The notes under the pieces were generated by a model. That model saw nothing but the letters and a program-made list of their open reading frames with translations, ran no database searches and was not told the DNA's origin. DNA of 64,000 nt from Maribacter algarum (ex Zhang et al. 2020) (GTDB lineage Bacteria > Bacteroidota > Bacteroidia > Flavobacteriales > Flavobacteriaceae): contig NZ_VATY01000003.1 in NCBI RefSeq assembly GCF_005885635.1, forward strand, positions 1 through 64,000, given 5' to 3'. Both the position numbers and the translations under genes were made by a program. Positions 1 to 12,492 of this stretch are shown here, piece by piece. The first letter of the stretch is position 1, and each line of letters begins with the position of its first letter.

Positions 1-1
1 T

Positions 2-205
2 ACCTCTTTAGCTTAAAAGGAAGAGCTGTGGTAAAAGCTATTGATCGTAGCCACGGAGTGATTGGAAGATGTTGTTAGCGGCGTGCCTGCTAATGAATAG
101 AATTTGCAGAAGCACCGAAATGGTCAAGAATCAAAGTAGGGAAGCGCATTTATAGCCGATCTGTTCGTTTCGACGAAAGTGCCAGTTCGAATCTGGCAAG
201 AGGTA
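2..205 (+). ncRNA. tRNA-like RNA with expanded anticodon region
   Basis: The ends fold as a tRNA. Acceptor strands 2-8 (ACCTCTT) and 198-204 (AAGAGGT) pair over 7 bp. T9 and A10 match U8/A9. The D-arm is 11-14 with 23-26 and its loop carries the conserved GG. The T-arm is 181-185/193-197 with loop TTCGAAT. A UUCG-capped hairpin (164-168/173-177) sits where a class II variable arm would be. Between the D-arm and that hairpin are about 137 bases instead of about 17. They contain a hairpin at 83-90/106-115 (GTGC+CTGC pairing GCAG+GCAC) and a possible 5-bp closing stem GATCG (43-47) with CGATC (157-161). No CCA is encoded. It could be an intron-bearing tRNA, a tRNA mimic like a Y RNA, or a decayed tRNA with an insertion. 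The tRNA-like ends are certain; the function is unknown. Confidence 0.6.
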
Positions 206-224
206 CAAAGTTCATTGAAAATAA

Positions 225-245
225 AATTCCCGCCTTCGCGGGAAC
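225..245. repeat. REP-like palindrome
   Basis: TTCCCGC (227-233), loop CTTC, GCGGGAA (238-244). The same core (ATTCCCGCCTnCGC..GGAA) recurs at 44965-44984, so it looks like a dispersed extragenic palindrome. A second hairpin, ACAAGA 244-249 with TCTTGT 261-266, follows directly. No T-run follows, so it is not a convincing terminator. Confidence 0.5.
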
Positions 246-364
246 AAGATATCAAGCTTGTCTTGTTGGGTGTTTCTGTATAGCACTATTGTGTGAAGTT
301 TTGCTGAGAAGTATTAGGTCTTCATATACAACTTGACTTGAAGGTTTTGGCTGTTTTCCAAAAA

Positions 365-462
365 ATAGTCCCGACTCTATAGGTCGTGGGTTCGATTCCC
401 ACCTTCCCCTCTAATTATACAGGAAAAATGGGGAAGTAGCTCAGTAGGTTAGAGCGATAGAC
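365..462 (+). tRNA. circularly permuted tRNA (3' half before 5' half), identity unclear
   Basis: The 3' half comes first: anticodon-stem strand TCTAT (376-380), variable region AGGTC, T-arm 386-390/398-402 with loop TTCGATT, acceptor strand CTTCCCC (403-409) and discriminator T410. After a 19-base linker the 5' half follows: acceptor GGGGAAG (430-436), TA, D-arm 439-442/452-455 with a GG-containing loop, and anticodon-stem strand ATAGA (457-461). Joined 5' to 3', all four stems close, including 7/7 acceptor and 5/5 anticodon-stem pairs, so the halves belong together. The break lies in the anticodon loop, and the anticodon cannot be read safely. The word ATAG occurs at both break points (365-368 and 457-460). 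No CCA is encoded. It may be a functional permuted gene, a decoy, or debris of a rearranged tRNA array. Confidence 0.6.
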
Positions 463-543
463 GTAGGTGTCGCGGGTTCGACTCCCGCTCCTATTACGAT
501 AGGATAGCTCAGTTGGTTAGAGCACTACACTTTTAATGTAGGT
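463..543 (+). tRNA. circularly permuted tRNA-Lys(UUU)
   Basis: The 3' half comes first: GTAG, variable region GTGTC, T-arm 472-476/484-488 with loop TTCGACT, acceptor TCCTATT (489-495) and discriminator A496. A single C later the 5' half begins: acceptor GATAGGA (498-504), TA, D-arm 507-510/520-523, and a complete anticodon arm CTACA-CTTTTAA-TGTAG (525-541) with anticodon TTT. Read as 498-543 followed by 469-496, it is a textbook tRNA-Lys. GTAGGT flanks the unit as a direct repeat (463-468 and 538-543), giving an exact 75-bp period, as if a one-gene circle had been inserted or a tandem array cut mid-gene. It directly abuts the 5' half of the preceding permuted tRNA. Confidence 0.65.
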
Positions 544-544
544 T

Positions 545-561
545 ATGGACTCAAAATCCAT
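545..561 (+). other. isolated Leu(CAA)-like anticodon arm
   Basis: ATGGA, loop CTCAAAA, TCCAT form a 5-bp stem and 7-base loop with U33 and anticodon CAA, as in tRNA-Leu(CAA). There is no matching T-arm or acceptor strand next to it. The run GATAGACG (456-463) resembles the end of a tRNA-Leu D-loop, so a Leu gene interrupted by the Lys unit is possible, but weakly supported. Confidence 0.4.
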
Positions 562-943
562 TTTCAACAAGAAGGTCACTTGTAAAAAGACCACCGGACG
601 GTCACTCCGTATAATTGACAAAAAGCCGTAGGTATAGGTCGGTTGGTTTTTCTTCGGATGAATCAACAGTCTTGAAACTACTTTGAAATACTGAATTTTT
701 GATGTGAAAGGCAATTTCTTTTTTGAATATCCTTCCCTCGGAAAAACCAATAAATAGTATTGGAAACACCGACCGAAGCATACCAAAAAACAAATCGTAA
801 CGAACTTCGAAAACCAATATTTCCGTATCGAATAGATGAGTTATAGTTGCGGTTTTTTAAAAGAGAATAAACCAATTAATAATAAATGAAAATAGTTTAA
901 CCCGTTCGTCCGTCAATCGACTGGCGGACACAAATTTTAAGTA
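562..943 (+). other. structured leader upstream of the slipin gene
   Basis: No gene is supported here. Reverse-strand open frames over this stretch look like chance. Long-range pairing is striking: GGTAT 631-635 with ATACC 780-784, GGTCGG 637-642 with CCGACC 769-774, and TTGGTTTTTC 643-652 with GAAAAACCAA 741-750. This closes a domain of about 154 bases. Smaller hairpins lie at 602-610 (ACGG..CCGT area) and 908-912/925-929 (GTCCG/CGGAC), the latter just before the start codon at 944. It may be a small RNA or a cis-acting leader. Confidence 0.5.
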
Positions 944-2044
944 ATGAAAAGAGTAAGAATCAATGCAGGAAAAGTAGGTTTGGTCTTCAAAAGAGGCGAT
1001 TACCAAAAAGTTATTACCCAAGGTACACACTGGGTGGGCTTTCAAAATATGGTTAAGGTCTATGACCTTACCAAGGCCTTTGTTGCTCCTATAGCATTAG
1101 AAATCTTGCTACAGGACCAAGGCTTGGAAGCTATGTTGCATATCATCGAAGTTAAGGATGCCGAATTGGCCTTGGTTTCTGAAAACGGAAACTTGAAACA
1201 AGTCCTTACCGCTGGTAAGTACGCTTTCTGGAAAGGTCTAATAAACTTCGAGTTCGTTATGGCGGACCTGAGTAAGATCTACATCACAGAAGCTATCAGT
1301 AAAGCGATGCTAAGCCATCCTCAGTTGCGAGCGTATGTTCGTACTTTAGAAGTTGCGGCATATGAGAAAGCTGTCCTCTTGGTTGATGATGTTTATGTCA
1401 AAACACTGGAAAGTGGTACCTACCATTTCTGGAAGAACGACATCTCCATCAAAATTGCCAGAGCGGATATGCGTCAATTGCAATTGGAAATTTCTGGTCA
1501 AGAATTGTTGACTAAAGACAAGGCGGCTATTCGTATCAACTTCTATACACAGTATAAAGTTGTTGATATTGAAAAGGCTTTGCTAGGCAGCAAAGACTAT
1601 GAAAAGCAATTGTACATTGCAATGCAGTTGGTATTGCGTGCCTATATTGGCACCTATACCTTGGATGAGCTTCTAGAGCGAAAAGAAAGCATCGCAGAAG
1701 CCGTATTTGCAGATATCAAAACAGCAGCTACCCAATTGGGTGTTGAAGTTTTGAGCTGTGGTATTCGTGATGTAATCTTAACTGGTGAAATGAAAGACAT
1801 CATGAACCAGGTTTTGGTTGCCCAAAAGAGAGCTCAGGCGAATATCATTACCCGACGTGAAGAGACTGCGTCTACCAGAAGCTTGCTGAACACCGCAAAG
1901 TTGATGGAAGACAACGAAATGCTCTTCAAGTTGAAGGAAATGGAATACGTTGAGAAGATCGCTGAGAAAATCGGTGAGATTACCGTCTCCGGCAACGGAG
2001 GTATGGTAAAGCAATTGAAGGAGATTTTCTCCGTCAATAAGTAG
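944..2044 (+). CDS. slipin-like SPFH/band-7 protein without membrane anchor
   Basis: A 366-residue protein with an N-terminal repeat-like region (about 1-130) and a band-7/SPFH core (about 135-310), ending in a charged helical tail. The tail includes RREETASTRSLLNTAKLMED, typical of slipins and stomatin-like scaffolds, which assemble into rings on membranes. Most family members start with a transmembrane segment; none is visible here. The N-terminal motif VGLVFKRGDY recurs in degenerate form around residues 140-170, suggesting an internal duplication. From memory, membrane-free slipins occur in some rtcB-type RNA-repair operons, which would fit the tRNA fragments just upstream; no rtcB is visible in this window. 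The ATG at 944 lacks a clear Shine-Dalgarno, as usual in this phylum. Family call strong; role inferred. Confidence 0.8.
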   Translation: MKRVRINAGKVGLVFKRGDYQKVITQGTHWVGFQNMVKVYDLTKAFVAPIALEILLQDQGLEAMLHIIEVKDAELALVSENGNLKQVLTAGKYAFWKGLINFEFVMADLSKIYITEAISKAMLSHPQLRAYVRTLEVAAYEKAVLLVDDVYVKTLESGTYHFWKNDISIKIARADMRQLQLEISGQELLTKDKAAIRINFYTQYKVVDIEKALLGSKDYEKQLYIAMQLVLRAYIGTYTLDELLERKESIAEAVFADIKTAATQLGVEVLSCGIRDVILTGEMKDIMNQVLVAQKRAQANIITRREETASTRSLLNTAKLMEDNEMLFKLKEMEYVEKIAEKIGEITVSGNGGMVKQLKEIFSVNK

Positions 2045-2098
2045 GTTGGTTAGAATGCGTCAATGTGAGTTGGCGCATTTTTTATTGAAGGCTATAAT

Positions 2099-2827
2099 TC
2101 AATTTCTTCCTTTTTCGTTAGGATATAATTCAGTCAAACTATCACTTTGCCAATATTCCTTTGTATCTATGTTTAAGACAGTTAGTTTGCCCGTAAATGC
2201 CGCCCCAGTATCTATATTCCATAGATTTATAGAATTCATTGGCACTATTTCTCCATAATTAGTAGTTGGCGTATGCCCAATATAGATTTCATTATATAGA
2301 CCTAATCGAGTTTCCAATTCGGGTTGTTTTTCTTCTTTAACATGCTTCAATATTCTTGCCGCCTCCCAAAGTGTTCTATCCCAGTAGAAATCATTTTCAT
2401 TATATTCTTTTTCTACTCCGTGCATTGAAGTAAAACCTGCATGCACAAAAAGACGATTATTATTATCTATGTAATAATTTTTCAAACCACTGAAAAAATT
2501 TCGATGACTCTCTTGAGTTATATAACCAGTCTTTATATAACTATCAATAGTGCCTTGCCCCCCATGAGCAAGCCAAATAGGGTTAGTTGCTCCTTTTTCT
2601 AGCCAAAGCTTACACCACAAATCGTGGTTTCCTAAAATGAAAACACAGTTCTGTTTCCCTGAGAGTTCAATTAAATATTCAATGGTTTGAGCAGATTCAC
2701 TCCAACCATCAACATAGTCTCCTAGAAAAATTAAAGTATCTTCAGGTGTAACTTTTGCTCGTTCTAAAACTTGAGTTAAGGCTTTTAAACCACCATGGAT
2801 ATCACCAATCACTAATCTTCGTTTCAC
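2099..2827 (-). CDS. PPP-family metallophosphatase
   Basis: A 242-residue calcineurin-like phosphoesterase of the lambda/PrpA serine-threonine phosphatase type. The metal-binding signatures are in order: GDIHG (about 8-12), GDYVDG (about 36-41), GNHD (about 65-68), then later histidines in LFVHAGF and YIGHTPTT. It is the last gene of the nadV operon. Its start overlaps the kptA stop by 4 bases (ATGA), so translation is probably coupled. In an RNA-repair setting it could act on phosphate ends or on nucleotides such as ADP-ribose phosphates; diadenosine tetraphosphate or phosphoprotein substrates are equally possible. The substrate cannot be told from sequence. No signal peptide, so cytoplasmic. 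Confidence 0.85.
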   Translation of the reverse strand: MKRRLVIGDIHGGLKALTQVLERAKVTPEDTLIFLGDYVDGWSESAQTIEYLIELSGKQNCVFILGNHDLWCKLWLEKGATNPIWLAHGGQGTIDSYIKTGYITQESHRNFFSGLKNYYIDNNNRLFVHAGFTSMHGVEKEYNENDFYWDRTLWEAARILKHVKEEKQPELETRLGLYNEIYIGHTPTTNYGEIVPMNSINLWNIDTGAAFTGKLTVLNIDTKEYWQSDSLTELYPNEKGRN

Positions 2828-3378
2828 GTTTTATCTTTAAAATCAATAAATCTTGGCGGTACATTATCTGTCAACCAAACACCGTTCTCCGACATAAAGA
2901 ACTTATGCCCTTCATGATGCATATCTAAAGCACTAATACTTAATATTATTGGTTTTCCTCTTCTAGCACCCACTTTTGTTGCTGTTTCTATATCTACACT
3001 TAAATGTACATGGTGTCTTTTCATTTTCAGCAAGCCTTTCTCTCTTATCGGTTTTATAAATTTAACCGGAGTGCCATGGTATAAAAACTCTGGGGGCTTT
3101 ACAGCTTCATAATCCAAATTTATTGATATCGAGTGACCTTGACTAGCTCTTATCTGTGTCTTGTCTTCATTAAAGGCAAAACGTTGTTTATCATTACTTT
3201 TCACCACAAATTCTAACTGTTCAAAAGTTATCGCTTTGCTTTCTCTTTGCATACGCTTTAGCAATACTTCAACATCCGCCCATCCATTCTCATCTAATAC
3301 TAAATCTAGCAATTGCGGTTTATGTCTTAGTACCAGGCTTAGGAATTTGCTGATCTGTTTTGCTTGTTTCTCTGTCAT
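2824..3378 (-). CDS. kptA: RNA 2'-phosphotransferase (Tpt1/KptA)
   Basis: A 184-residue, full-length member of the Tpt1/KptA family. These enzymes transfer an internal RNA 2'-phosphate to NAD+, releasing nicotinamide and ADP-ribose 1''-2'' cyclic phosphate. Conserved blocks are clear: KFLSLVLRHKP (about 11-21), LDENGW (about 28-33), IRASQGHS (about 77-84), LYHGT (about 99-103) and HHVHLS (about 121-126). Bacteria usually lack the tRNA splicing pathway that makes 2'-phosphate junctions, so the natural substrate in bacteria is an open question. Here it sits in an operon with NAD salvage genes, which could recycle the nicotinamide it releases, and about 2.3 kb from permuted and expanded tRNA-like genes. 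It overlaps the phosphatase start by 4 bases and lies 49 bases after the LOG gene. Confidence 0.93.
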   Translation of the reverse strand: MTEKQAKQISKFLSLVLRHKPQLLDLVLDENGWADVEVLLKRMQRESKAITFEQLEFVVKSNDKQRFAFNEDKTQIRASQGHSISINLDYEAVKPPEFLYHGTPVKFIKPIREKGLLKMKRHHVHLSVDIETATKVGARRGKPIILSISALDMHHEGHKFFMSENGVWLTDNVPPRFIDFKDKT

Positions 3379-3427
3379 TTCTCTAATAATTCTTTATAAA
3401 TTCTATAGTTCTCTTCAATGGCAATTT

Positions 3428-3952
3428 TTAATTTGCTGAAAAATCCATTAACATTCTCTCTCGGAGTTCTTGAGAATTTTCAACAATTTGAAACAGGTCA
3501 TGTTCATAATCTGGAATTAAATTTGCTTTCAAACTAACGATTAAATCCTTCCAAATGGCGCCAATGAAATACAACTTAGGTCGCTCCTCTTTGGGTTCTT
3601 TACGGATTAAAAAAACCTCCGACAAAGTTCCTATTCCTCCTCTTTGAACAATAAAGACGGAAGTGCCTTCGAGCAATATTTTGAGTCTGTCAAACAATTT
3701 TTCTGTTACGATTGTCTCACTTAAATACTTGTTTCCTTCTGAAGAACCTACTTGTTTACAAGTTACTCCAATGGATTTACCTCCAGATTGGACTGCTCCT
3801 TTTGAAACAGCTTCCATCATTCCACCATAGCCACCATTTTTTACTATATAATCTTGTTTAGCTAAAAAAGAACCGATCCGTATGGTCTCTAGATATTCTT
3901 TAGATTCAGTATTGTTTCCAGAACCACCAAATAGTGCTGCGTATTTTATCAT
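3428..3952 (-). CDS. LOG/SLOG-family nucleotide-binding protein
   Basis: A 174-residue Rossmann-type protein of the LOG (lysine decarboxylase-like) family. It has the glycine-rich GGYGGMMEAVSKGA (about 41-54) and RGGIGTLSEV (about 104-113), a variant of the PGGxGTxxE signature of phosphoribohydrolases that split nucleoside monophosphates into base and ribose phosphate. The usual proline is replaced by arginine. The wider SLOG superfamily also includes binders of NAD- or ADP-ribose-derived signals. Here it lies inside a NAD/ADP-ribose operon and overlaps the NADAR start by 4 bases. Either nucleotide hydrolysis or ligand sensing is plausible. Confidence 0.8.
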   Translation of the reverse strand: MIKYAALFGGSGNNTESKEYLETIRIGSFLAKQDYIVKNGGYGGMMEAVSKGAVQSGGKSIGVTCKQVGSSEGNKYLSETIVTEKLFDRLKILLEGTSVFIVQRGGIGTLSEVFLIRKEPKEERPKLYFIGAIWKDLIVSLKANLIPDYEHDLFQIVENSQELRERMLMDFSAN

Positions 3953-4503
3953 AGGTTACTATTTATATCATCTCGTACCTCCATTAAAGCAAAACCTAAC
4001 AGATTTTCACCCTGCCACAAATTTGGATTCTGAGCGTCTGAATCATTCTGTGCCAATCCGATACCCCAAATGGCATCAACCGGACTAGCTTCAACAAGAA
4101 TTCTATCTTTTGTATTTAACAAAAACTCTTTCAAATCTGTATGTTGAGAAAACTTAAGATAATTTGCTTCTTTGACGATTGCATATTTCTCTTCATTCCA
4201 AATTTTGGGGTCAAAATTCGCTACTTTTCGCCCTAGCTTTTTCGCTTCAGCCGGATGCTCACAAGCTATAATTTTAGCTCTGATCTCTAAATCTTTAAAA
4301 AGACGAGCTTTTTCAGCCATCATAAAATGTTCCGCTGTTTTATAGGTTTCATTTTCTTTTGTAAAAGATGACCGCCACCATTGACTAAAACAGCTTTTGA
4401 TAACAGAACCATCCTTGCTTGGTGTATGACCCCAGAAGAATAAGAATTTTAAATTTTCGTTTTGATCAAATTCTTGTTTGATTATGTCTAGTGTATATTT
4501 CAT
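3949..4503 (-). CDS. NADAR-family protein (YbiA-like)
   Basis: A 184-residue NADAR domain protein. Signatures: FLFFWGH (about 20-26), CFSQWW (about 38-43), YKTAEHFMMAEKA (about 53-65), ASPVDAIWGIGL (about 138-149) and NLWQGENLLGFALMEVRD near the end. NADAR proteins handle ADP-ribose-linked or ribose-linked substrates: YbiA acts on riboflavin pathway intermediates, and others remove ADP-ribose from guanine in nucleic acid. It overlaps neighbours by 4 bases at both ends, so it is co-translated within the operon. Next to kptA it could clear ADP-ribosylated products, which is inference. Confidence 0.88.
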   Translation of the reverse strand: MKYTLDIIKQEFDQNENLKFLFFWGHTPSKDGSVIKSCFSQWWRSSFTKENETYKTAEHFMMAEKARLFKDLEIRAKIIACEHPAEAKKLGRKVANFDPKIWNEEKYAIVKEANYLKFSQHTDLKEFLLNTKDRILVEASPVDAIWGIGLAQNDSDAQNPNLWQGENLLGFALMEVRDDINSNL

Positions 4504-4955
4504 TTCATTCTCGTTTTGACTTCGTTAATCAATTCCTTCAAGCTTTGAACTTGTGGGATGCCATATCTGGCACAAACAATATCTACATTACCTTTCCTCC
4601 AAAAACCATCAGGACAGCAAACAATTAGTTTTCCACTCTTCGCAAATAGTCCAAGTTCTAATAGCGATATTGGTGATTTAGTACTTTTATCAAAATACAT
4701 GATAATTAAATCTACTTTCTCAAGTGCTACTAACTCCCAGCTTACTTGTTCATTAAATTTCGGATTATTGATGTCTTGTTTCCAACTGGCATCCCAGGCA
4801 TCTCTTCTTGGGTTTACCAAAATCACCTGTTTACTCGCCAACCTTTCAATAACAATATCTTGCCATTTTTGTGCTGTGTCACCTTCGATACTACCTGCTA
4901 AAAAAACACTGTAGCTGTTTAGAAGAAGTTTTTCTGGTGCAGTAATTACATTCAT
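4500..4955 (-). CDS. nucleoside 2-deoxyribosyltransferase-like protein
   Basis: A 151-residue protein of the nucleoside deoxyribosyltransferase-like fold. Visible motifs are FLAGSIE (about 18-24), VNPRRDAWDASW (about 48-59), ELVALEKVDLIIMYF (about 73-87) and SPISLLELGLFAKSGK (about 93-108), with the glutamate in LLELG as probable catalytic residue. Classical members exchange bases on deoxyribonucleosides; relatives cleave N-glycosidic bonds in nucleotides. It overlaps the PRPP-synthetase-like gene and NADAR by 4 bases each. Its presence among NAD enzymes suggests cleavage of a nucleoside or NAD-derived ligand, but the substrate is unknown. Confidence 0.75.
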   Translation of the reverse strand: MNVITAPEKLLLNSYSVFLAGSIEGDTAQKWQDIVIERLASKQVILVNPRRDAWDASWKQDINNPKFNEQVSWELVALEKVDLIIMYFDKSTKSPISLLELGLFAKSGKLIVCCPDGFWRKGNVDIVCARYGIPQVQSLKELINEVKTRMK

Positions 4956-5710
4956 ATCACTTTAAACTGTGTCACAAACTCGTCCTCAATTTTCTTGAAA
5001 CTATTAGTACAATACACATGGTCAATTGTTTCTTTCAATTCATCGAAACCATAGTTAAACTGACCATGAGTGACATATAAAAAAACCTTAGCTGCGCCTT
5101 GTTTTTTTAAGGCGTCAGCAAGAAATTTAAACGTTCGCCCGCCATCAGCTAAATCATCAACAATAAGACAGTCTTTATCTTTTACATCGCCCTGGATACT
5201 AATTTGAGGGATGCCATCTACACGAACCTTGTTAGACGGAACCAAATCGGCCTCAAGCTTTTCAGCAATCTCGTGAGTAGTTTTATAAGCTCCTGCATCT
5301 GGACTAACCAATACAGGGTTTCCAATAGCCTCAAAGGTTTTTTTAACATAAGGAAAATGGGATAATTTACTTGCGTTTTCTATCAAGGCCAAAGAAATAG
5401 GACTATGAGGATGTAAAATTTCTACCTTATCAAAAGCCATTGAATTAATGAAATTTGCAATGACCTTTAAATCAAAAGATTCTTTTGCATTAAAGCGCCT
5501 ATCCGAACGTTGCCCAATTAAACAATAGATTGATAGGGTTGCAGTTGCAGTCTTATTCATACTATTTTCAGCATCCCAAGCTTCCTTTATGGCTGCGATG
5601 GCAAATAAATCATCATAACTATTCCCACGTATGTGAACATCAAGATTACCTTCCTCTAGAATTTTAGCGGCAACTTGCCCGTCTTTAAATTTCTTTATTT
5701 CGTATTTCAT
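4952..5710 (-). CDS. short PRPP-synthetase-like protein
   Basis: A 252-residue protein of the ribose-phosphate pyrophosphokinase/phosphoribosyltransferase fold. The PRPP or ribose-phosphate loop is clear: CLIVDDLADGGRTF (about 176-189). GQRSDRRF (about 68-75) replaces the usual catalytic RQDR-type region. Housekeeping PRPP synthetases are about 310-320 residues, so this is a shorter, divergent relative. Paired with nadV it could supply PRPP for nicotinamide salvage. Alternatively the pair resembles the phage NARP1 system, where a PRPP-synthetase-like enzyme pyrophosphorylates ADP-ribose and a NAMPT-like enzyme adds nicotinamide to rebuild NAD+. Sequence alone cannot decide. It lies 31 bases after nadV. 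Confidence 0.8.
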   Translation of the reverse strand: MKYEIKKFKDGQVAAKILEEGNLDVHIRGNSYDDLFAIAAIKEAWDAENSMNKTATATLSIYCLIGQRSDRRFNAKESFDLKVIANFINSMAFDKVEILHPHSPISLALIENASKLSHFPYVKKTFEAIGNPVLVSPDAGAYKTTHEIAEKLEADLVPSNKVRVDGIPQISIQGDVKDKDCLIVDDLADGGRTFKFLADALKKQGAAKVFLYVTHGQFNYGFDELKETIDHVYCTNSFKKIEDEFVTQFKVI

Positions 5711-5741
5711 TTTACTGATTTTAATGGGTCAATAATTAGCT

Positions 5742-7196
5742 TTAAAGGTGTTCATTTATTCGAGCTCGAATTTCTTCAATGGAAGTTCTACTTACGAACT
5801 TCCCATCTTCAAAAATAATTTTCAACTCTCCTTTTTCCTCTTCCGCTTCTGGTACTTCATCAACTAAAACGTAATCTCCGTTTACTTTATCGACGCGAAT
5901 CAATCCTTTTGCAGATTTCTTAACACCATCATCAGTGATTGGGTCTTTGAAAATTTCTCTTCGTTCGCCATTAACAACAACCGAGGTTGCTTTCATAGCA
6001 AAGCCAAAGGTATCTCTAGTGTTGAATTGATAGGTAAAAGAACCAATCCCCAATACAACATTGGTAGATGCAAAACCTTTATCATGTAAACGCTGGCAAA
6101 TATCTTCTGAACGAATAAGTGTAATACTATCACCATAAATCGCACCAATATGAGGGTCTAAAACTTTAAAACCTTCTTTGTTAACTGAACCACCAAAAAC
6201 GTCCCAAAGTAGTTCTACGACTCCCTTTTCTGATGGACTACCGTCACCAAGTCTTCCATTTGTTCCACAGATAATATCTACAGGATCTCCACTATCAGGT
6301 CGAATTACCAATTTACCATTACGACCTAATATTTCTTCTTTCAAAGCAGGAAGATAGTCGGTGAGTACTTTCCATAAATCCCAAGTATCACTTACTACTG
6401 ATAATATTCCCGTTGGATACGTTTCCATCAATTGACGAAAAGTTCCGATTTCATCATCTTTGGTACCCGCGCACATTACGGAGTGTTCGGTTGCATTTAC
6501 AGAACCAACCACAAAACCTTCTGCTTGATAGTATTTTTTAAGTCCATGAATCACGGGTAAAGTATCAGACCCTAGAAATACAGAAGCATGACCCATACCG
6601 GAAGCTACAGCACTCTGAAGACCACCCATTCCTCGCATCGAGAAATCATGTCCTTGAAAATCAATAAATGGCAAATTTTCAGCATCAGTTTTTAAAGCCC
6701 ATTTTTTAAAAATACGTTTATAGGTCAATGCAATAGATGCTGATGTCATTGGTAACCATAACATGGTTGACAAAATGGTTTCTAAGAAGTTGGTCACCCA
6801 ATAAAACTCTTTTTTAGTATTTACAACGGTTAACATAGGCACACGAATAGGAACTTCAACACCTTCAGGTAAAGACTTCACGCGAATTGGCAAATAGCCT
6901 AAATCATGCAGCTCTTCAAAATGAGTAACATCGTAAGGCGCATTTAGATATAACGAAAGTTCTTCCTTCAGTTCAGCACAAACGGTTGCTTTTGGTTTAG
7001 AGAAGAAATTATCTTCAAAATAATCATGTAACCATTGCATTACATATTGTTGCCCAAAAGAAAGGACTTTATCACAGCCTTTCGGAGCATATTTATTACT
7101 TCTTGGAGTCCAGTTAGAATATACTTCTTCTGTTCCCTTGGGGTATTGCTGATGATGTCCCGTTTTATATCCGTCTGTAAGTAGTAATCCGTTCAT
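5742..7196 (-). CDS. nadV: nicotinamide phosphoribosyltransferase
   Basis: A 484-residue NAMPT/NadV protein, the normal family length. It joins nicotinamide and PRPP to form NMN, the first step of NAD+ salvage. Family hallmarks are LTDGYKTGHHQQYP at the N-terminus, HDFSMRGM (about 183-190), the catalytic histidine in NATEHSVM (about 234-241) and IRPDSGDP (about 297-304). It is the first gene of a seven-gene minus-strand operon. Two NrtR-like dyads lie 80 and 133 bases upstream of its start, each placed between -33 and -7 like sequences, so it is probably repressed when NAD or ADP-ribose signals are adequate. Its partner gene suggests a possible ADP-ribose-based variant reaction. Confidence 0.93.
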   Translation of the reverse strand: MNGLLLTDGYKTGHHQQYPKGTEEVYSNWTPRSNKYAPKGCDKVLSFGQQYVMQWLHDYFEDNFFSKPKATVCAELKEELSLYLNAPYDVTHFEELHDLGYLPIRVKSLPEGVEVPIRVPMLTVVNTKKEFYWVTNFLETILSTMLWLPMTSASIALTYKRIFKKWALKTDAENLPFIDFQGHDFSMRGMGGLQSAVASGMGHASVFLGSDTLPVIHGLKKYYQAEGFVVGSVNATEHSVMCAGTKDDEIGTFRQLMETYPTGILSVVSDTWDLWKVLTDYLPALKEEILGRNGKLVIRPDSGDPVDIICGTNGRLGDGSPSEKGVVELLWDVFGGSVNKEGFKVLDPHIGAIYGDSITLIRSEDICQRLHDKGFASTNVVLGIGSFTYQFNTRDTFGFAMKATSVVVNGERREIFKDPITDDGVKKSAKGLIRVDKVNGDYVLVDEVPEAEEEKGELKIIFEDGKFVSRTSIEEIRARINEHL

Positions 7197-7263
7197 AGTT
7201 TTAGTTTTTATCTGTTGGTGGAAATATGGTATTTGTACATAACGATACTTCCTTTGAAATATT

Positions 7264-7294
7264 TAAATCTAATTTTGTGTATTTATTACGCAAA
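7264..7294 (-). promoter_or_regulatory. putative proximal promoter of the nadV operon
   Basis: Minus strand: TTTG (7294-7291), 19-base spacer, TAGATTTA (7271-7264), close to the Bacteroidetes TTTG-N19-TAnnTTTG consensus and about 67 bases before the start codon. The NrtR-like dyad occupies almost the whole spacer. Confidence 0.5.
7276..7292. promoter_or_regulatory. NrtR-type operator 1
   Basis: TGTGTA-TTTAT-TACGCA, a 17-bp imperfect dyad sharing spacing and half-sites with the two other copies. It overlaps the spacer of the proximal nadV promoter. Confidence 0.65.
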
Positions 7295-7318
7295 TATAAA
7301 ATGTGTTTTTGAATCACA

Positions 7319-7347
7319 CAAGATATTTTGTGTTTTTTTTACGCAAA
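7319..7347 (-). promoter_or_regulatory. putative distal promoter of the nadV operon
   Basis: Minus strand: TTTG (7347-7344), 18-base spacer, TATCTTG (7325-7319). It repeats the layout of the proximal promoter, again with the operator between the two elements. Confidence 0.4.
7329..7345. promoter_or_regulatory. NrtR-type operator 2
   Basis: TGTGTT-TTTTT-TACGCA, same 17-bp layout as operators 1 and 3. A further TGTGT/ACACA pair (7302-7320) lies between operators 1 and 2 with different spacing and may be incidental. Confidence 0.6.
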
Positions 7348-7373
7348 TTAAAATTCAAAGCTTGTAGATAAGG

Positions 7374-8048
7374 CTATATTTCGAAGATGATACCTTCCTT
7401 TTTTAGTTGGAAATAACGTTTCTTATTAAAGCTAAAAAGGCTTGCAGGCCTACCTCTGCCTATAGAAACCTTCTCGTCTAATTCATCTAAAACTTTCAGG
7501 CTAGTAATTTTCTTTTTGAAATTTCTTCTGTCAATTTCACGATCCAGCAGGGTGGTGTAAAGCTTTTCTAAATCGGAAAAAGGGAACTTTTTATCGAGTA
7601 ATTCAAATCCGATAGGCTCATATGTAATCTTTCCTTGTAGTCTTTCAATGGCAATTTTTAAGATTTTTTTGTGGTCAAATGCCAACTTAGGCAACTTTTT
7701 GATATCGAACCATTCTGCTTTTTTTGCATCAGTAGATGCGGTCAACTTGAAGGCATTTGGTTTGACCAATCCGAAGTAAGCTACTGAGACTACTCTACCC
7801 CTTGGGTCTCGCCCTAAATCCCCAAAGGTGTACAATTGTTCCAAGTAGTTAATTCTAGCACCCGTCTCTTCCGACAATTCTCTTTGAACTGCTTGCTCTA
7901 AATCTTCATTTTCCAATACAAAGCCTCCTGGTAAAGCCCAACCATCTTTGAAGGGTTCGTATTTGCGTTTGACCAGAAGTACAGATATATTCCCCGAATC
8001 ATAACCAAACACTACTGCGTCGACGGTAAGTTTAATTTTGCTTTTCAT
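7374..8048 (-). CDS. nrtR: NrtR-type Nudix transcriptional repressor
   Basis: From the ATG at 8048 the protein has 224 residues, starting MKSKIKLTVDAVVFGYD; the longer open frame adds 18 unlikely residues that would translate the operator. Residues about 5-140 are a Nudix fold with a good box (GGFVLENEDLE... QRELSEETGA), and about 145-224 form a winged-helix C-terminal domain with GRGRPASLFSF, the NrtR arrangement. NrtR proteins bind ADP-ribose or related ligands through the Nudix-like domain and repress NAD synthesis genes. It is transcribed in the same direction as the nadV operon, 177 bases upstream of nadV. A dyad identical in layout to the nadV operators sits 5 bases before its start, implying autoregulation. 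Residual Nudix hydrolase activity is possible because the box is intact. Confidence 0.85.
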   Translation of the reverse strand: MKSKIKLTVDAVVFGYDSGNISVLLVKRKYEPFKDGWALPGGFVLENEDLEQAVQRELSEETGARINYLEQLYTFGDLGRDPRGRVVSVAYFGLVKPNAFKLTASTDAKKAEWFDIKKLPKLAFDHKKILKIAIERLQGKITYEPIGFELLDKKFPFSDLEKLYTTLLDREIDRRNFKKKITSLKVLDELDEKVSIGRGRPASLFSFNKKRYFQLKKEGIIFEI

Positions 8049-8052
8049 TATA

Positions 8053-8069
8053 TGTGTAAAATATACACA
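8053..8069. promoter_or_regulatory. NrtR-type operator 3
   Basis: TGTGTA-AAATA-TACACA, the most symmetric of three copies, ending 5 bases upstream of the nrtR ATG. It lies in the divergent region between nrtR and the SWIM gene (8202). Confidence 0.65.
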
Positions 8070-8201
8070 AATATAACCAAAATAAAGTGCATTTATCTTC
8101 AAACTGATCGCTTACAGAAATAATATTCTATTTCAACCAGAAAATTCTTAGCAATAAAAATATACCTGTATTTTTAAGTGTATTTATCCAAACCCTTAAC
8201 T

Positions 8202-9548
8202 ATGGCTTCAGATACACTTAACTATCAATACAAAACTGCATCCTCCCTAAAAAAGGAAAATGGCAAAGAGAGTCTACTACTATCAAAATTTAGCGAGGTA
8301 GAAAAAGGAAGTTCTCCTTGTTTCTTTTGGGGTACCTTAAATCAACCTTATGAACTATCAAGGTGCTTGATTACCCTTTCGAATATTGTACAGTCCAGTT
8401 TTAATCTTTCACCTTTCCAATTAGCCTTACTCAAGGACCCTATTGTAACCGCTGGAAATGAACAAATTCGTTTTGAAGGATTTTCTCATTGTGCCGGAGT
8501 ATATGCCAGAGTCGATGTTTTAGACAGCGGCCAAGATGGGGAATTCATTGAAAATGGCACAACCAATGTCGATTTCAATACACCACTAATCTCGGAATTA
8601 GGAAAAATCCAAAAAAATGACAATCTGGTGCTTTCTGTTGGCCAAAAAGAGGTTGGGTTCCATAAAGATGGAAAAAGCACTATAGAACGTAAAGTTCCTT
8701 TACCAGCAAAATGGATAAAAGGTTTAACAACCGTTCAACATTTCTTTTCAGAATCAGAGTATGGACTTACTCTCAATAGAATACAAGCTATTCAGTTATT
8801 TAAGACTATACCGAATGGTAAGGTGAAAACAGACTATTTTCTGTTAAAAAGAGGAAATCGCTATTCCTTTTCACCCTTAAAATCTAAAGATGCGATTTGT
8901 ATCGGAGGTATTCATCGGTTACGTTTATTAAATCATCTCATTCCATTAATTAATGAACTTAAAATATATCCTCATAAAGATTTACAGTCTGTTAGCTTAA
9001 TTATGTGTTTCGACCATGTCAATTTTACATTTTCGGTATCACGAGATTTTTGGAGAGGTTTTTCTGGTGAAGGAGCCGCTCTTGAAGAACTAATAGAAGA
9101 CTTACCTGATTCGCTTATTCAAGCCTTTGATAATTATTCTTATGCAAATCAAGAGTTTAATCCTGCTTTAATTGCTTTGGAAGAAAACATTGATTTGAGC
9201 AAAATAGAGAAACTATCTACCAAATTATCAGCCATGGGTCTTCTAGGTTATGATTTAGAAAAAAATGGGTTTTTCTACCGACGATTGCCTTTCAAACTTA
9301 GTAGAATATTATCCTTAAACCCAAGACTGAAGGGCGCTGAAAAACTGTTACTGGAAGACAAGGTTAATATTACTTCAAATAAAGAAAACCAGATAGAGGC
9401 TAAAGTTGAAGGTAGCGGAGTTCATCACTATGTAGTTATTAAGGATTCAATGGAAAAGTGTACCTGTACCTGGTACAGCAAGAATCAAGGTGAACGCGGA
9501 GTATGCAAACATATATTAGCCGTAAAGAAAAAAGCCAAATCCAATTAA
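8202..9548 (+). CDS. SWIM zinc-finger protein
   Basis: From the ATG at 8202 (an upstream GTG at 8178 is possible) the product has 448 residues. The C-terminus carries a SWIM zinc-finger: CTCTW, then GVCKHIL, that is CxC-Xn-CxH, at about 415-440. The rest is an uncharacterised alpha/beta region. SWIM domains bind nucleic acid or protein partners. In Bacteroidota such proteins often lie next to large HEAT-like (DUF6493-type) proteins, and related SWIM genes belong to MoxR-ATPase/von Willebrand conflict systems. Here the next gene begins 1 base after the stop, so the two are translationally coupled. No MoxR or VWA gene is present. Confidence 0.8.
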   Translation: MASDTLNYQYKTASSLKKENGKESLLLSKFSEVEKGSSPCFFWGTLNQPYELSRCLITLSNIVQSSFNLSPFQLALLKDPIVTAGNEQIRFEGFSHCAGVYARVDVLDSGQDGEFIENGTTNVDFNTPLISELGKIQKNDNLVLSVGQKEVGFHKDGKSTIERKVPLPAKWIKGLTTVQHFFSESEYGLTLNRIQAIQLFKTIPNGKVKTDYFLLKRGNRYSFSPLKSKDAICIGGIHRLRLLNHLIPLINELKIYPHKDLQSVSLIMCFDHVNFTFSVSRDFWRGFSGEGAALEELIEDLPDSLIQAFDNYSYANQEFNPALIALEENIDLSKIEKLSTKLSAMGLLGYDLEKNGFFYRRLPFKLSRILSLNPRLKGAEKLLLEDKVNITSNKENQIEAKVEGSGVHHYVVIKDSMEKCTCTWYSKNQGERGVCKHILAVKKKAKSN

Positions 9549-9549
9549 T

Positions 9550-12492
9550 ATGCTTGAAAAAGAATTAGAAGAAATTATTATCAAAGAGAAAAGTATTATC
9601 ACCTTCTTAAAAAAACTCAGTCCAAAAGATAAAAGAGAACTTGTTCCTTTTCTAAAAAAGCTAAAAGAGAGAGTATTTGAACTAAAGACTATAGAGGAAA
9701 AATCCAAATGGGGCTTATCTTATACTTATGAACATACTCATACTGAAAAACAAAGGGCGCTAATGCATAAAGCGTGTTATGTTTGTTTCAATAAAACAGA
9801 TATAAAAAGGGCACTTTTCAATGTTAGTAATCTTTCTGTAAGTGATGATTATTTAAAAAATATCATTCCTTGGTATACTCCAAATTGGTACGGCGACTTG
9901 ATTAATGAAGATATGCCTTGGGAATTGACCTACGACAAGACAATGCGATTATGTAAAGACGGCTTACTAGAACCATCTCATGCATTACTTCTAAACAAAC
10001 TTCCAAGTGCAATAGTCGAATACGAGTGGAAGGATAAGAAAAGGCTTAGTTATTACAAACCTGAAGTTTTATTCAATCATAAAAAAACCTTAGACGAGCA
10101 CATTTGGTTATTGTTTGAGGAAGATTCTAGTATAAATAATTATTACAACTATCTACATCTAGAAAATTATAAAGGAGGTAATGATATTTGGATTGATACC
10201 ATTTGCAATTTAGTTCATGATGAGAAACTCAATCGAAAAAAAGTTTTACGGGCAACCATATATACATCTACTAAAGGGTTTAACAAGACATTAAGTGGTT
10301 GGTTCTTCGATTTGCTCTTAAAATTAAATCTAACTGAGGAGGAAATATTGAGTTTGCAAAATGAACTATTTGCAGCATTGAATTCACCTCATTCTAAAGT
10401 AATAAATACAGTTCTAAAATATTTTAAATCTGTCTCCAATCTTAAAAAGTTTAAGCATAAAACTTTTATTGAGAACTCGTCGTTACTATTAAATTCCGAA
10501 ACGAAGTCCGTTGTTAACTCAACTTTGATGATTTTAGATAAAATCGCTAAAATTCACCCTTCTTCAAAATTATCAGCTTGTCAAAAAGCTTCAGAAGCTT
10601 TGATCAATATCGATGAAAAAATTCAATTAAGGGCGGCCAAAATAATTGAGAAATACGGAAATCCAAAAAAAGTGGAACTTCTTGATGAAATCAATTTGTA
10701 CGCTGACAATCTGTTTTATACATCCAAGGAAGTACTGCACGAATACTTAACTCAGCAAGAAGAAGTTGAAGCCTACAATTATGAGGTGGAAGAATCAAAG
10801 GTGATATCTGAAGAAAATAAGTTGTCATCTTACAAAACGTTTGACGAGTTAATCTTTTTTGTAAGTCAGGCTCTTGACAATAACGAAGTATATCATATCG
10901 ATTTACTCTTAAGCTATTTACCCAAATTGAATGTTCTTTTGAACAAGGATAATGTCGGGAAATTGGAACCTATTTTTAAGCGATCTTTCGACCTTTCGAT
11001 GAGCTTTGACTGGAATAGCCAAATTGGTAATTTAGAATCAGAGGCAGCTCTCTATATGAATGACTTTGCGGAAATTTTAATGAGAAAGTTTCCTGCTGAG
11101 CTAGATAGCTTCCGAAAGGCGAAGGACAAAAAAATAAAAAAACTCAAGGAGGACAGGTATTATAGCTCACATTACAAGCAAAATTTGAAGGAGATAGAAA
11201 AACAACCTATTCCTGATTATATCTACCAAATCCATCATTTTCTATTCATAAAATCCAAGGCCTTAATTAAAAAAAGTTTAACCTTAGAATTGTTATCCAC
11301 ACCAACTCATAGTCCTTGTTGGATTGACCCGAAGGTACTTATTGAAAGAATTTTGGCGTACGAGAGAAGTAACGAGGTAATGGATTTATATGATTTTCAA
11401 TTAGCTCTAGGGCGGTTACCGATAAATAATCAGGGCCAAGATGTAACTGGACTTATTCAGAGTATAAAGGATGAGGACTCTAAAAAAATTCTACAATATC
11501 ACTTTAATCTACTTGATATTAATAATGAAAAAATTACCAGACCTGAATTATGGCTTCAAAGCGTATTGAGCAGAAATAAGGATTCAGAAGTTTCATTTTT
11601 TCAAGAGTACTTGGCTAATTCCTTACAAAAGGAAAAAGGGGCATATGTCTGGGATTGCGAAATGAAGGACCATTTTTATAAAGAATATGATTATTCCCTT
11701 GGTAAGCAGGTACAGAAAAAAATGGTTAGAAAAGAATTGGGGTTTAAAGATTTTAATCTTCAAAAAGCCAAGCCTGATTCCCTTGTTGATGGCCTCAAGG
11801 GATTTTTTGGCAGAAATAAAAAAACGATAAAAATCAATAGCATTTATAACTACATCCACTTCAAAAAACAAAAATATTACACTACCATACAACCAAATGA
11901 TGAAATAAAATTCTTGTACTTATCTCCAAATAATCCAAGTATGTTCTTAAGTCATGTTATTCATAATAACCTTAAAGAATCTACTTTTTTTGATGAGAGC
12001 AGTAAAAAGAATATGGTTAATTTATTGAAAGGCTTACACGAAATTTGGATTAGACCTGATTTTAAGGAATCGACCTATTTATTTTTAGCTTCAGGGCTTT
12101 TATGCAGTGATAAAGTCTCTAGAGAACTCGCTGCAGAAGTATGGATTAAAGCAAGTGCTGAAGGAAACATGAACAGTTTATTATTAGGTCAAATCGTTGG
12201 AAAACTTCAGAAGGGAGAATACGCGCCCCTTAAACGGTTTACAGACTTAATGACTATGAGCCTTTTCAATGTTTCCAAGGGACATAACGAATCTCTCTAT
12301 AGGCTTTTGGATAATATGATTGGTAACATGAATAATGTTCCTATTAGGGGTGTAAAAAAATTGTTGGAAATATTTTTAGAATTAAAACGTAGCTTTCCCC
12401 GGTCTGAAATAAGTGAATTATCGCTAGAGAAACTATCAGTATGGCAAGAGACAAAAACAATAAAATCGGTTATAAATAAGATTATTCAATAG
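9550..12492 (+). CDS. large HEAT-like helical protein, DUF6493-type
   Basis: A 980-residue, lysine-rich, predominantly helical protein without signal peptide. Regularly spaced helical pairs are visible, for example around KVINTVLKYFKSVSNLKKF and STLMILDKIAKIHP, as in HEAT or ARM solenoids. Composition and layout resemble the DUF6493 proteins of Bacteroidota that accompany SWIM-domain proteins. No catalytic motif is seen. It probably works with the SWIM protein encoded 1 base upstream as a nucleic-acid or protein scaffold, perhaps in stress or conflict responses. Family match is by pattern and moderately certain; function unknown. Confidence 0.7.
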   Translation: MLEKELEEIIIKEKSIITFLKKLSPKDKRELVPFLKKLKERVFELKTIEEKSKWGLSYTYEHTHTEKQRALMHKACYVCFNKTDIKRALFNVSNLSVSDDYLKNIIPWYTPNWYGDLINEDMPWELTYDKTMRLCKDGLLEPSHALLLNKLPSAIVEYEWKDKKRLSYYKPEVLFNHKKTLDEHIWLLFEEDSSINNYYNYLHLENYKGGNDIWIDTICNLVHDEKLNRKKVLRATIYTSTKGFNKTLSGWFFDLLLKLNLTEEEILSLQNELFAALNSPHSKVINTVLKYFKSVSNLKKFKHKTFIENSSLLLNSETKSVVNSTLMILDKIAKIHPSSKLSACQKASEALINIDEKIQLRAAKIIEKYGNPKKVELLDEINLYADNLFYTSKEVLHEYLTQQEEVEAYNYEVEESKVISEENKLSSYKTFDELIFFVSQALDNNEVYHIDLLLSYLPKLNVLLNKDNVGKLEPIFKRSFDLSMSFDWNSQIGNLESEAALYMNDFAEILMRKFPAELDSFRKAKDKKIKKLKEDRYYSSHYKQNLKEIEKQPIPDYIYQIHHFLFIKSKALIKKSLTLELLSTPTHSPCWIDPKVLIERILAYERSNEVMDLYDFQLALGRLPINNQGQDVTGLIQSIKDEDSKKILQYHFNLLDINNEKITRPELWLQSVLSRNKDSEVSFFQEYLANSLQKEKGAYVWDCEMKDHFYKEYDYSLGKQVQKKMVRKELGFKDFNLQKAKPDSLVDGLKGFFGRNKKTIKINSIYNYIHFKKQKYYTTIQPNDEIKFLYLSPNNPSMFLSHVIHNNLKESTFFDESSKKNMVNLLKGLHEIWIRPDFKESTYLFLASGLLCSDKVSRELAAEVWIKASAEGNMNSLLLGQIVGKLQKGEYAPLKRFTDLMTMSLFNVSKGHNESLYRLLDNMIGNMNNVPIRGVKKLLEIFLELKRSFPRSEISELSLEKLSVWQETKTIKSVINKIIQ

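Follow-up and report, generated by a model that had tools for sequence, protein, structure and literature searches.

The element at nt 463–543 of the window (the 64,000 nt stretch of Maribacter algarum DNA analysed here, which forms the start of contig C14 in a 5.1 Mb genome assembly that is 99.9% complete) is probably a tRNA-like module of the YrlA (bacterial Y RNA) type in circularly permuted order, the second in a tandem pair that lies in a structured RNA just upstream of an SPFH gene. In this element the T arm and an acceptor strand come ahead of the D and anticodon arms, and the sequence GTAGGT occurs at both ends (463–468 and 538–543), a spacing of 75 nt. When 498–543 is joined to 469–496, ARAGORN calls a tRNA-Lys(ttt); in the native order of the window, no tRNA was found by this program. 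The first-pass annotation of this DNA had described the permuted order, the repeat and its 75 nt period, and the reading of the reordered string as tRNA-Lys(UUU), and all three are borne out. It had also placed the two halves one base apart. Their order stands, but base 497 is not a spacer: it belongs to a 4 nt loop (UACG, 495–498) that caps the acceptor stem.

This module (module B, 463–541, plus strand) consists of a T arm (472–488), the capped acceptor hairpin (489–494/499–504) and a D arm (507–523), followed by an anticodon-arm hairpin (ASL1, 525–541) with the triplet UUU. The strand 525–528 can pair either with 463–466, giving a closing stem like that of YrlA, or with 538–541, within the anticodon arm, and the alternative might conceivably act as a switch; the minimum-energy fold of 366–600 favours pairing within the anticodon arm. 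Immediately upstream is a similar unit (module A, 376–461, plus strand), recognised by a structural descriptor, with a closing stem (376–380/457–461), a T arm (386–402), an acceptor hairpin (403–409/430–436) with a 20 nt loop, and a D arm (439–455). Its T, acceptor and D hairpins are present in the minimum-energy fold of 366–600, from which its closing stem is absent and in which it shows no anticodon arm.

Folded as a single sequence, 366–600 gives the T, acceptor and D hairpins twice in succession, followed by two hairpins with 5 bp stems and 7 nt loops (z-score −2.3; 2 of 200 shuffled sequences were at least as stable). The second of these is a free anticodon-arm-like hairpin (ASL2, 545–561, plus strand; AUGGA-CUCAAAA-UCCAU, triplet CAA), which is also seen on comparison across loci. 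Module A, this hairpin and a linear-order tRNA-like RNA at 1–206, described below, had escaped the earlier reading. The Rfam model for linear tRNA matches 498–569 at 42 bits against a cut-off of 29, the acceptor being poorly paired.

The arm order of the modules is that of YrlA. The YrlA consensus (RF02553) carries a T arm, a capped acceptor hairpin and a D arm within a four-pair stem, the same permuted order as found here, and in a permissive search of nt 1–1000 the model matched 464–530 (45.8 bits, E 7.9e-9), a score below the Rfam cut-off of 69 and an alignment spanning positions 23–88 of the 114 in the model. Besides the order of the arms, the two RNAs share a short closing stem and the frequent proximity of RtcB genes. 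The window differs from YrlA in having a tandem pair of modules ahead of an SPFH gene, with extra anticodon-arm-like hairpins, and in the lack of a matched Rsr-binding stem, of Rsr in the genome and of a score above the cut-off. No long basal stem of the kind that binds Rsr/Ro60 appeared in the fold of 366–600, and none was matched in the window. A permuted tmRNA (RF04321) was considered and discarded, as it reached 24 bits at 386–438 against a cut-off of 47.

Eleven loci beside SPFH genes all matched YrlA at E ≤ 0.005, eight of them over the tRNA-like part alone and three over positions 1–114. The weakest matches say little, because a linear tRNA junction (L177) also scores 33.6 bits with this model, and the modules of one relative (L067) had no YrlA match at E 0.01. 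A distant member of the phylum (L200, 1320–2077) has YrlA matches in five tandem copies, next to Rsr and an RtcB-like gene; two of the five score above the Rfam cut-off, and no others did so among the scanned relatives. The rsr gene (TROVE domain) is lacking in this genome. Among 149 genomes of the family, TROVE was found in one (and in none of the 125 good ones), and the SPFH orthologue in 15; a single genome (G114) has both, with TROVE about 850 bp downstream of SPFH, so 14 of the 15 SPFH-bearing genomes sampled in the family, this one counted, lack Rsr. TROVE was seen in the flanks of three of 86 loci (L107, L114 and L116, the last being, by its content, the contig of G114). These counts indicate that the modules mostly occur without Rsr, yet that the two systems touch. 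Neither Y RNA modules ahead of SPFH genes nor a tandem YrlA lacking Rsr turned up in a literature search, which did not extend to the main Y RNA papers or the RNA-repair survey and is weak evidence of novelty.

Relatives were fetched by means of the SPFH protein (Band_7), and the best 80 of 532 loci, mostly from Flavobacteriaceae, were searched with the descriptor outside tRNAs called by ARAGORN. This gave 130 modules in 76 of the 80 loci, positioned 340–900 nt upstream of the SPFH gene: two modules in 50 loci, one in 24 and three in 2. The count was taken after 28 descriptor matches inside linear tRNAs and 10 outside the 340–900 nt range had been dropped, and a few of the 130 are doubtful (e.g., L081 at −398, L110 at −360 and L116 at −626). 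Three of the four loci without a module have less than 500 nt of upstream sequence, and the fourth (L124) is a true miss, with 10 kb upstream and no module. The D-loop GG is present in 127 of the 130, although the descriptor favoured GG by a bonus. An earlier, looser descriptor gave 0.05 to 0.4 matches per 2.5 kb of shuffled sequence, and also matched linear tRNA junctions.

Seventy-two modules (3 from this genome and 69 from relatives, the latter chosen by an acceptor loop of at most 8 nt and a TA ahead of the D arm) were aligned with MAFFT. RNAalifold predicted exactly the T, acceptor and D arms, with compensatory change in 13 of 15 pairs. In this alignment 97.8% of cells were paired, against 70.1% after shuffling, and the covariation was 0.826, compared to 0.258 in shuffled alignments (0 of 500 shuffles reached it) and 0.09–0.21 with slid partners; these covariation values are inflated by the selection of 69 of the 72 rows with a descriptor that requires the hairpins. 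Since members of the alignment had been chosen by their hairpins, a count that starts from the T arms is the fair test. Of the T arms within 900 nt of SPFH that are not part of linear tRNAs, 117 of 179 are followed directly by a strict Watson–Crick hairpin of at least 5 bp, which is lacking in the other 62, while the figure for T arms of linear tRNAs at the same 80 loci is 17 of 316. For hairpins of at least 6 bp, the counts are 74 of 179 outside linear tRNAs versus 4 of 316 within them.

A covariance model of the module (R1) scored 88.4 bits on module B, which is itself part of the model's alignment, 58.2 on module A and 35.1 on the best linear tRNA junction of the same genome. Across 296 genomes of the phylum, under stricter filters, nine besides this one reached at least 60 bits, and the best locus in each of the nine adjoins the SPFH orthologue. 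Twenty further loci (L184–L203) scored 51.2–58.6 bits, with two of them found by SPFH, five (L200 included) by TROVE (Rsr), and the remaining 13 being neighbouring linear tRNAs; the model is unspecific below about 58 bits, as neighbouring linear tRNAs reach 57.7. Taken at the level of predicted structure, these comparisons show that a capped, permuted tRNA-like fold, usually in tandem, is conserved upstream of SPFH genes, often near RNA-repair genes.

Two other origins for the permuted order had been proposed in the first-pass annotation, and neither fits well. A genuine permuted tRNA-Lys gene, yielding a working tRNA once its transcript had been cut between the acceptor strands and rejoined, perhaps by an RtcB, would agree with the ARAGORN call on the reordered string and with the RtcB-family genes found in many relatives' loci and near two contig ends of this genome. 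Like the circularly permuted tRNA genes covered in a review (PMC3978253, of which a part was available), module B has its 3′ half encoded ahead of the 5′ half; unlike them, as far as that part goes, its acceptor strands are joined by a 4 nt loop and a normal tRNA-Lys exists elsewhere. Judged by loop length alone, the acceptor ends would not readily be freed by processing: in a loop this short (3–5 nt in 79 of the 130 modules, with GNRA in 11), there is scarcely space for a free 3′ end. Module A lacks an anticodon arm, the genome holds a normal tRNA-Lys(UUU), the permuted domain is the one described by the YrlA model, and the triplets collected over the loci include AAA and UUA, which are unusual as anticodons. 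A permuted tRNA gene is thus highly improbable. Debris, left by a tandem tRNA-Lys array cut in mid-gene or by an inserted tRNA circle, would account for the 75 nt repeat frame with GTAGGT at both ends, and linear tRNAs do lie upstream in many relatives. Against it stand the recurrence of the order in 76 of 80 loci, alongside independent linear tRNAs in those loci that have them, the compensatory changes, the adjoining second module of different sequence, and the wide difference between the reordered string and the genomic tRNA-Lys. The conserved order also speaks against simple deletion from an array, and an origin as debris is less probable still than a permuted gene.

The hairpins that follow the modules resemble free anticodon arms. 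In the stretch after the last T arm, examined in 82 of 86 loci, hairpins of 5 bp and 7 nt found without any rule on the loop number 1.52 per locus, against 0.215 in shuffled segments, and the anticodon-loop frame of tRNAs (pyrimidine 32, U33, purine 37) is present in 99 of 125. The ASL1 triplets (63 loci, in a set selected by this frame) are UUU in 22, CAU in 11, UAG in 7, UCG in 5, GUU in 4 and others in 14. ASL2 hairpins picked by their stem alone were found in 43 loci, with loops CUCAAAA (17), CUGAAAA (7) and 14 others, and of the 38 cases in which this stem has a loop of 5–9 nt, 37 have one of 7 nt.

The variation of the ASL2 triplet is the strangest result of this analysis. Mapped onto the SPFH tree of 42 loci, positions 34, 35 and 36 of the stem-selected hairpins change 18, 8 and 9 times, and positions 32, 33, 37 and 38 change 5, 3, 2 and 5 times; the triplet as a whole shows at least 23 changes over the 42 loci, and evolves at about three times the per-site rate of the rest of the loop. 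With hairpins taken by position alone (44 loci, 43 of them in the tree), the triplet positions change 17, 8 and 10 times and the others 2 to 8 times (mean 6), a less marked contrast. A selection by stem and loop letters together (over 39 loci, 18 changes in the triplet, 8 in the stem and 3 in the loop frame) had overstated the contrast and is superseded by these counts. The changing triplet may reflect diversifying selection, or loose constraint within a kept frame.

Downstream of the anticodon hairpins, a conserved motif (569–592, plus strand; AAG, then GGTCA/CTT, TAAAA and GACC), also found in relatives, is possibly a pseudoknot. The remaining leader (593–943) runs up to the gene of the SPFH/Band-7 protein (944–2044, plus strand; 366 aa, Pfam PF01145), the gene by which relatives were found, and the whole of 207–943 has a fold z-score of −5.1 (20 shuffles). 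No relaxed Bacteroidota-type promoter was found in the 1.5 kb before SPFH, and the last 1 kb of 86 loci gave 0 relaxed matches versus 5.6 expected. A terminator-like site occurs within the last 480 nt before SPFH in three of 86 loci, and 593–943 contains neither a promoter-like nor a terminator-like site by the scans used. A long helix between about 630–655 and 735–785, spotted by eye, was unsupported, since C14 and the paralogous contig C18 differ on one side only.

The linear-order tRNA-like RNA (T1, 1–206, plus strand) starts at the contig edge. It has acceptor, D and T arms in linear order, and a conserved domain of about 150 nt in place of the anticodon arm; an alignment of 17 sequences predicts 50 pairs, 19 with compensatory change. 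It matched none of the Rfam families. T1 is present at full length (at least 80% identity) in 17 of 86 loci, the window counted, and in two pieces in L107, and among 296 genomes of the phylum it was full or near full length in two and partial in three. No copy was found in phages or plasmids by blastn, and viral contigs gave no exact match to the T1 pattern. A phage origin of the region found no favour elsewhere either, as nt 1–12,000 of the window had no similar phage DNA by megablast and viral contigs no SPFH relative.

The flanks of the loci often hold genes of RNA repair. In tblastn searches of up to 10 kb on each side of 86 loci, a TPR protein was found in 54, the RtcB family, to which YrlA is linked, in 51 (some matches being at 26–30% identity), the release factor PrfH in 27 and an NrtR-type regulator in 8. 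The PrfH of one relative (L046) is above the TIGR03072 cut-off and its RtcB matches PF01139. At that locus (4130–9563, genome G013), integrase-like and AbiEi-like genes, both recognised by eye, lie in the flanks, together with AbiEii (PADLOC) and a Mutator-family transposase (Pfam). A long minus-strand protein occurs in 31 loci, and a protein at the end of C18 that begins similarly has a WYL match. Within 3.5 kb upstream, ARAGORN called 361 tRNAs in 80 loci: five or more in 30, one to four in 31 and none in 19. Neither a tRNA array nor PrfH was seen in this genome, in which the contig ends before any array, and no RtcB lies within 20 kb on the contig of the window, which begins at base 1. Two RtcB-family genes do lie near contig ends elsewhere (C18:96178–96945 and C12:529–1296). 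Near the edge of C12 (L050, 3560–3694), some 2.3 kb from that contig's RtcB-family gene, a 45 aa stretch resembles the end of the SPFH protein (67% identity). A comparable set of genes is known from Anabaena, where a spare-tRNA operon (trn), RtcB and a slipin (SPFH) gene are under one repressor, TrcR (PMC10272220, available in part); the genes are scattered there and linked here, and the part of that paper at hand makes no mention of permuted modules.

What the YrlA-type modules do can be proposed from their placement and fold. They would be transcribed together with SPFH, as neither a promoter nor a terminator was found between, and would form an L-shaped mimic of tRNA, one that could not be charged. 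As such they could be a bait for, or a sensor of, tRNA-attacking or tRNA-binding enzymes, whereby real tRNAs are spared or repair genes are switched on. Such a role is possible but somewhat doubtful, and its weight was lowered by the fairer hairpin counts. A fuller version is less probable: an RNA bait of tandem uncharged mimics with exchangeable anticodon stem-loops, the triplets diversifying to match the anticodon nucleases or ribotoxins of each lineage, which would link the sensing of an attack on tRNAs with a spare-tRNA array, RtcB and an SPFH membrane protein, with no Ro60 involved. Given the hairpins with differing anticodons, the link to an anticodon nuclease that the first-pass annotation raised with PrrC is possible. 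For Salmonella YrlA, the available part of one study suggests, as one possibility, that it competitively inhibits an anticodon nuclease, and reports that no YrlA fragments were seen (PMC7790460).

By analogy with YrlA and PNPase, a scaffold is about as likely as a bait or sensor, and is likewise put forward tentatively. The modules would then be docking sites on the leader for PNPase, for a tRNA-modifying enzyme, or for the SPFH or repair proteins. The fold is shared with YrlA, whose tRNA-like domain is reported to bind PNPase and to be modified by TruB and DusA (review PMC8394870, available in part), but Rsr, the partner in the YrlA/PNPase machine, is missing from nearly all the SPFH-bearing genomes counted above, and a scaffold alone leaves the differing triplets unexplained. 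It is rather unlikely that the RNA instead controls the SPFH gene as a cis-regulatory leader, by sensing tRNA that is uncharged or damaged. The position upstream of SPFH, uninterrupted by a recognisable promoter or terminator, and the hairpins with differing triplets would suit such a leader; the scarcity of terminator-like sites does not, nor does the failure to match a T-box or any other Rfam leader family, either at cut-off in the window or at E 5 in 1–1000.

The modules join topics that have mostly been described apart, namely Y RNA tRNA mimics, tRNA arrays, GOLLD RNA and RtcB repair, and suggest that YrlA-like tRNA mimicry extends beyond the Ro60 machine. A kept frame with a changing triplet yields a testable prediction on the tRNA-cutting enzymes that a lineage faces. 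They also give a reason for caution, as an apparent permuted tRNA in bacteria can be a mimic of the Y RNA type.

The genome carries a paralogous locus on contig C18. C18:1–223 is 98% identical to window 1–223, and C18:1153–1928 is 92% identical to window 207–1000; the repeat AAAGTTCATTGAAA borders the difference between the two, and the two contigs have a common starting base. Both this and the absence of an array would be explained if the island had been duplicated and its near-identical array lost in assembly. In the C18 modules, the acceptor stems differ in sequence with pairing kept. YrlA gives 44.1 bits at this locus (L009), below the cut-off, and aligns over positions 1–114 with several of them unpaired. 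On the minus strand at L009 3010–8422 are genes for DUF4291 and a second SPFH protein and, by eye or similarity, an ADP-ribosylglycohydrolase, NADAR and NrtR.

The interval between the shared parts of C18 includes a match to GOLLD RNA (RF02032) at C18:600–1074 (122 bits, E 5e-33, below the cut-off of 150); the window has no GOLLD match. Four relatives were scanned for GOLLD because they have an extra permuted module farther upstream, and in all four that module lies inside a GOLLD match (116–136 bits, also below the cut-off). These chromosomal GOLLD-like RNAs (L009 600–1074, L051 8717–9199, L067 8714–9215, L068 708–1210 and L076 8615–9096) each hold a permuted tRNA-like module in the variable linker. 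Model R1 gives 42–51 bits on the GOLLD modules and 28.6 on that of C18, all within its unspecific range. GOLLD and the modules resemble each other in adjoining tRNA arrays and in the permuted tRNA-like module, held in the linker in the paralogue and four relatives, and differ in that the window is without GOLLD.

On the minus strand next to the SPFH gene of the window (2099–8102) lie genes for a metallophosphatase, an RNA 2′-phosphotransferase (KptA), SLOG and NADAR, and further a nucleoside deoxyribosyltransferase-like protein, a phosphoribosyltransferase, NAMPT/NAPRTase and an NrtR-type regulator.
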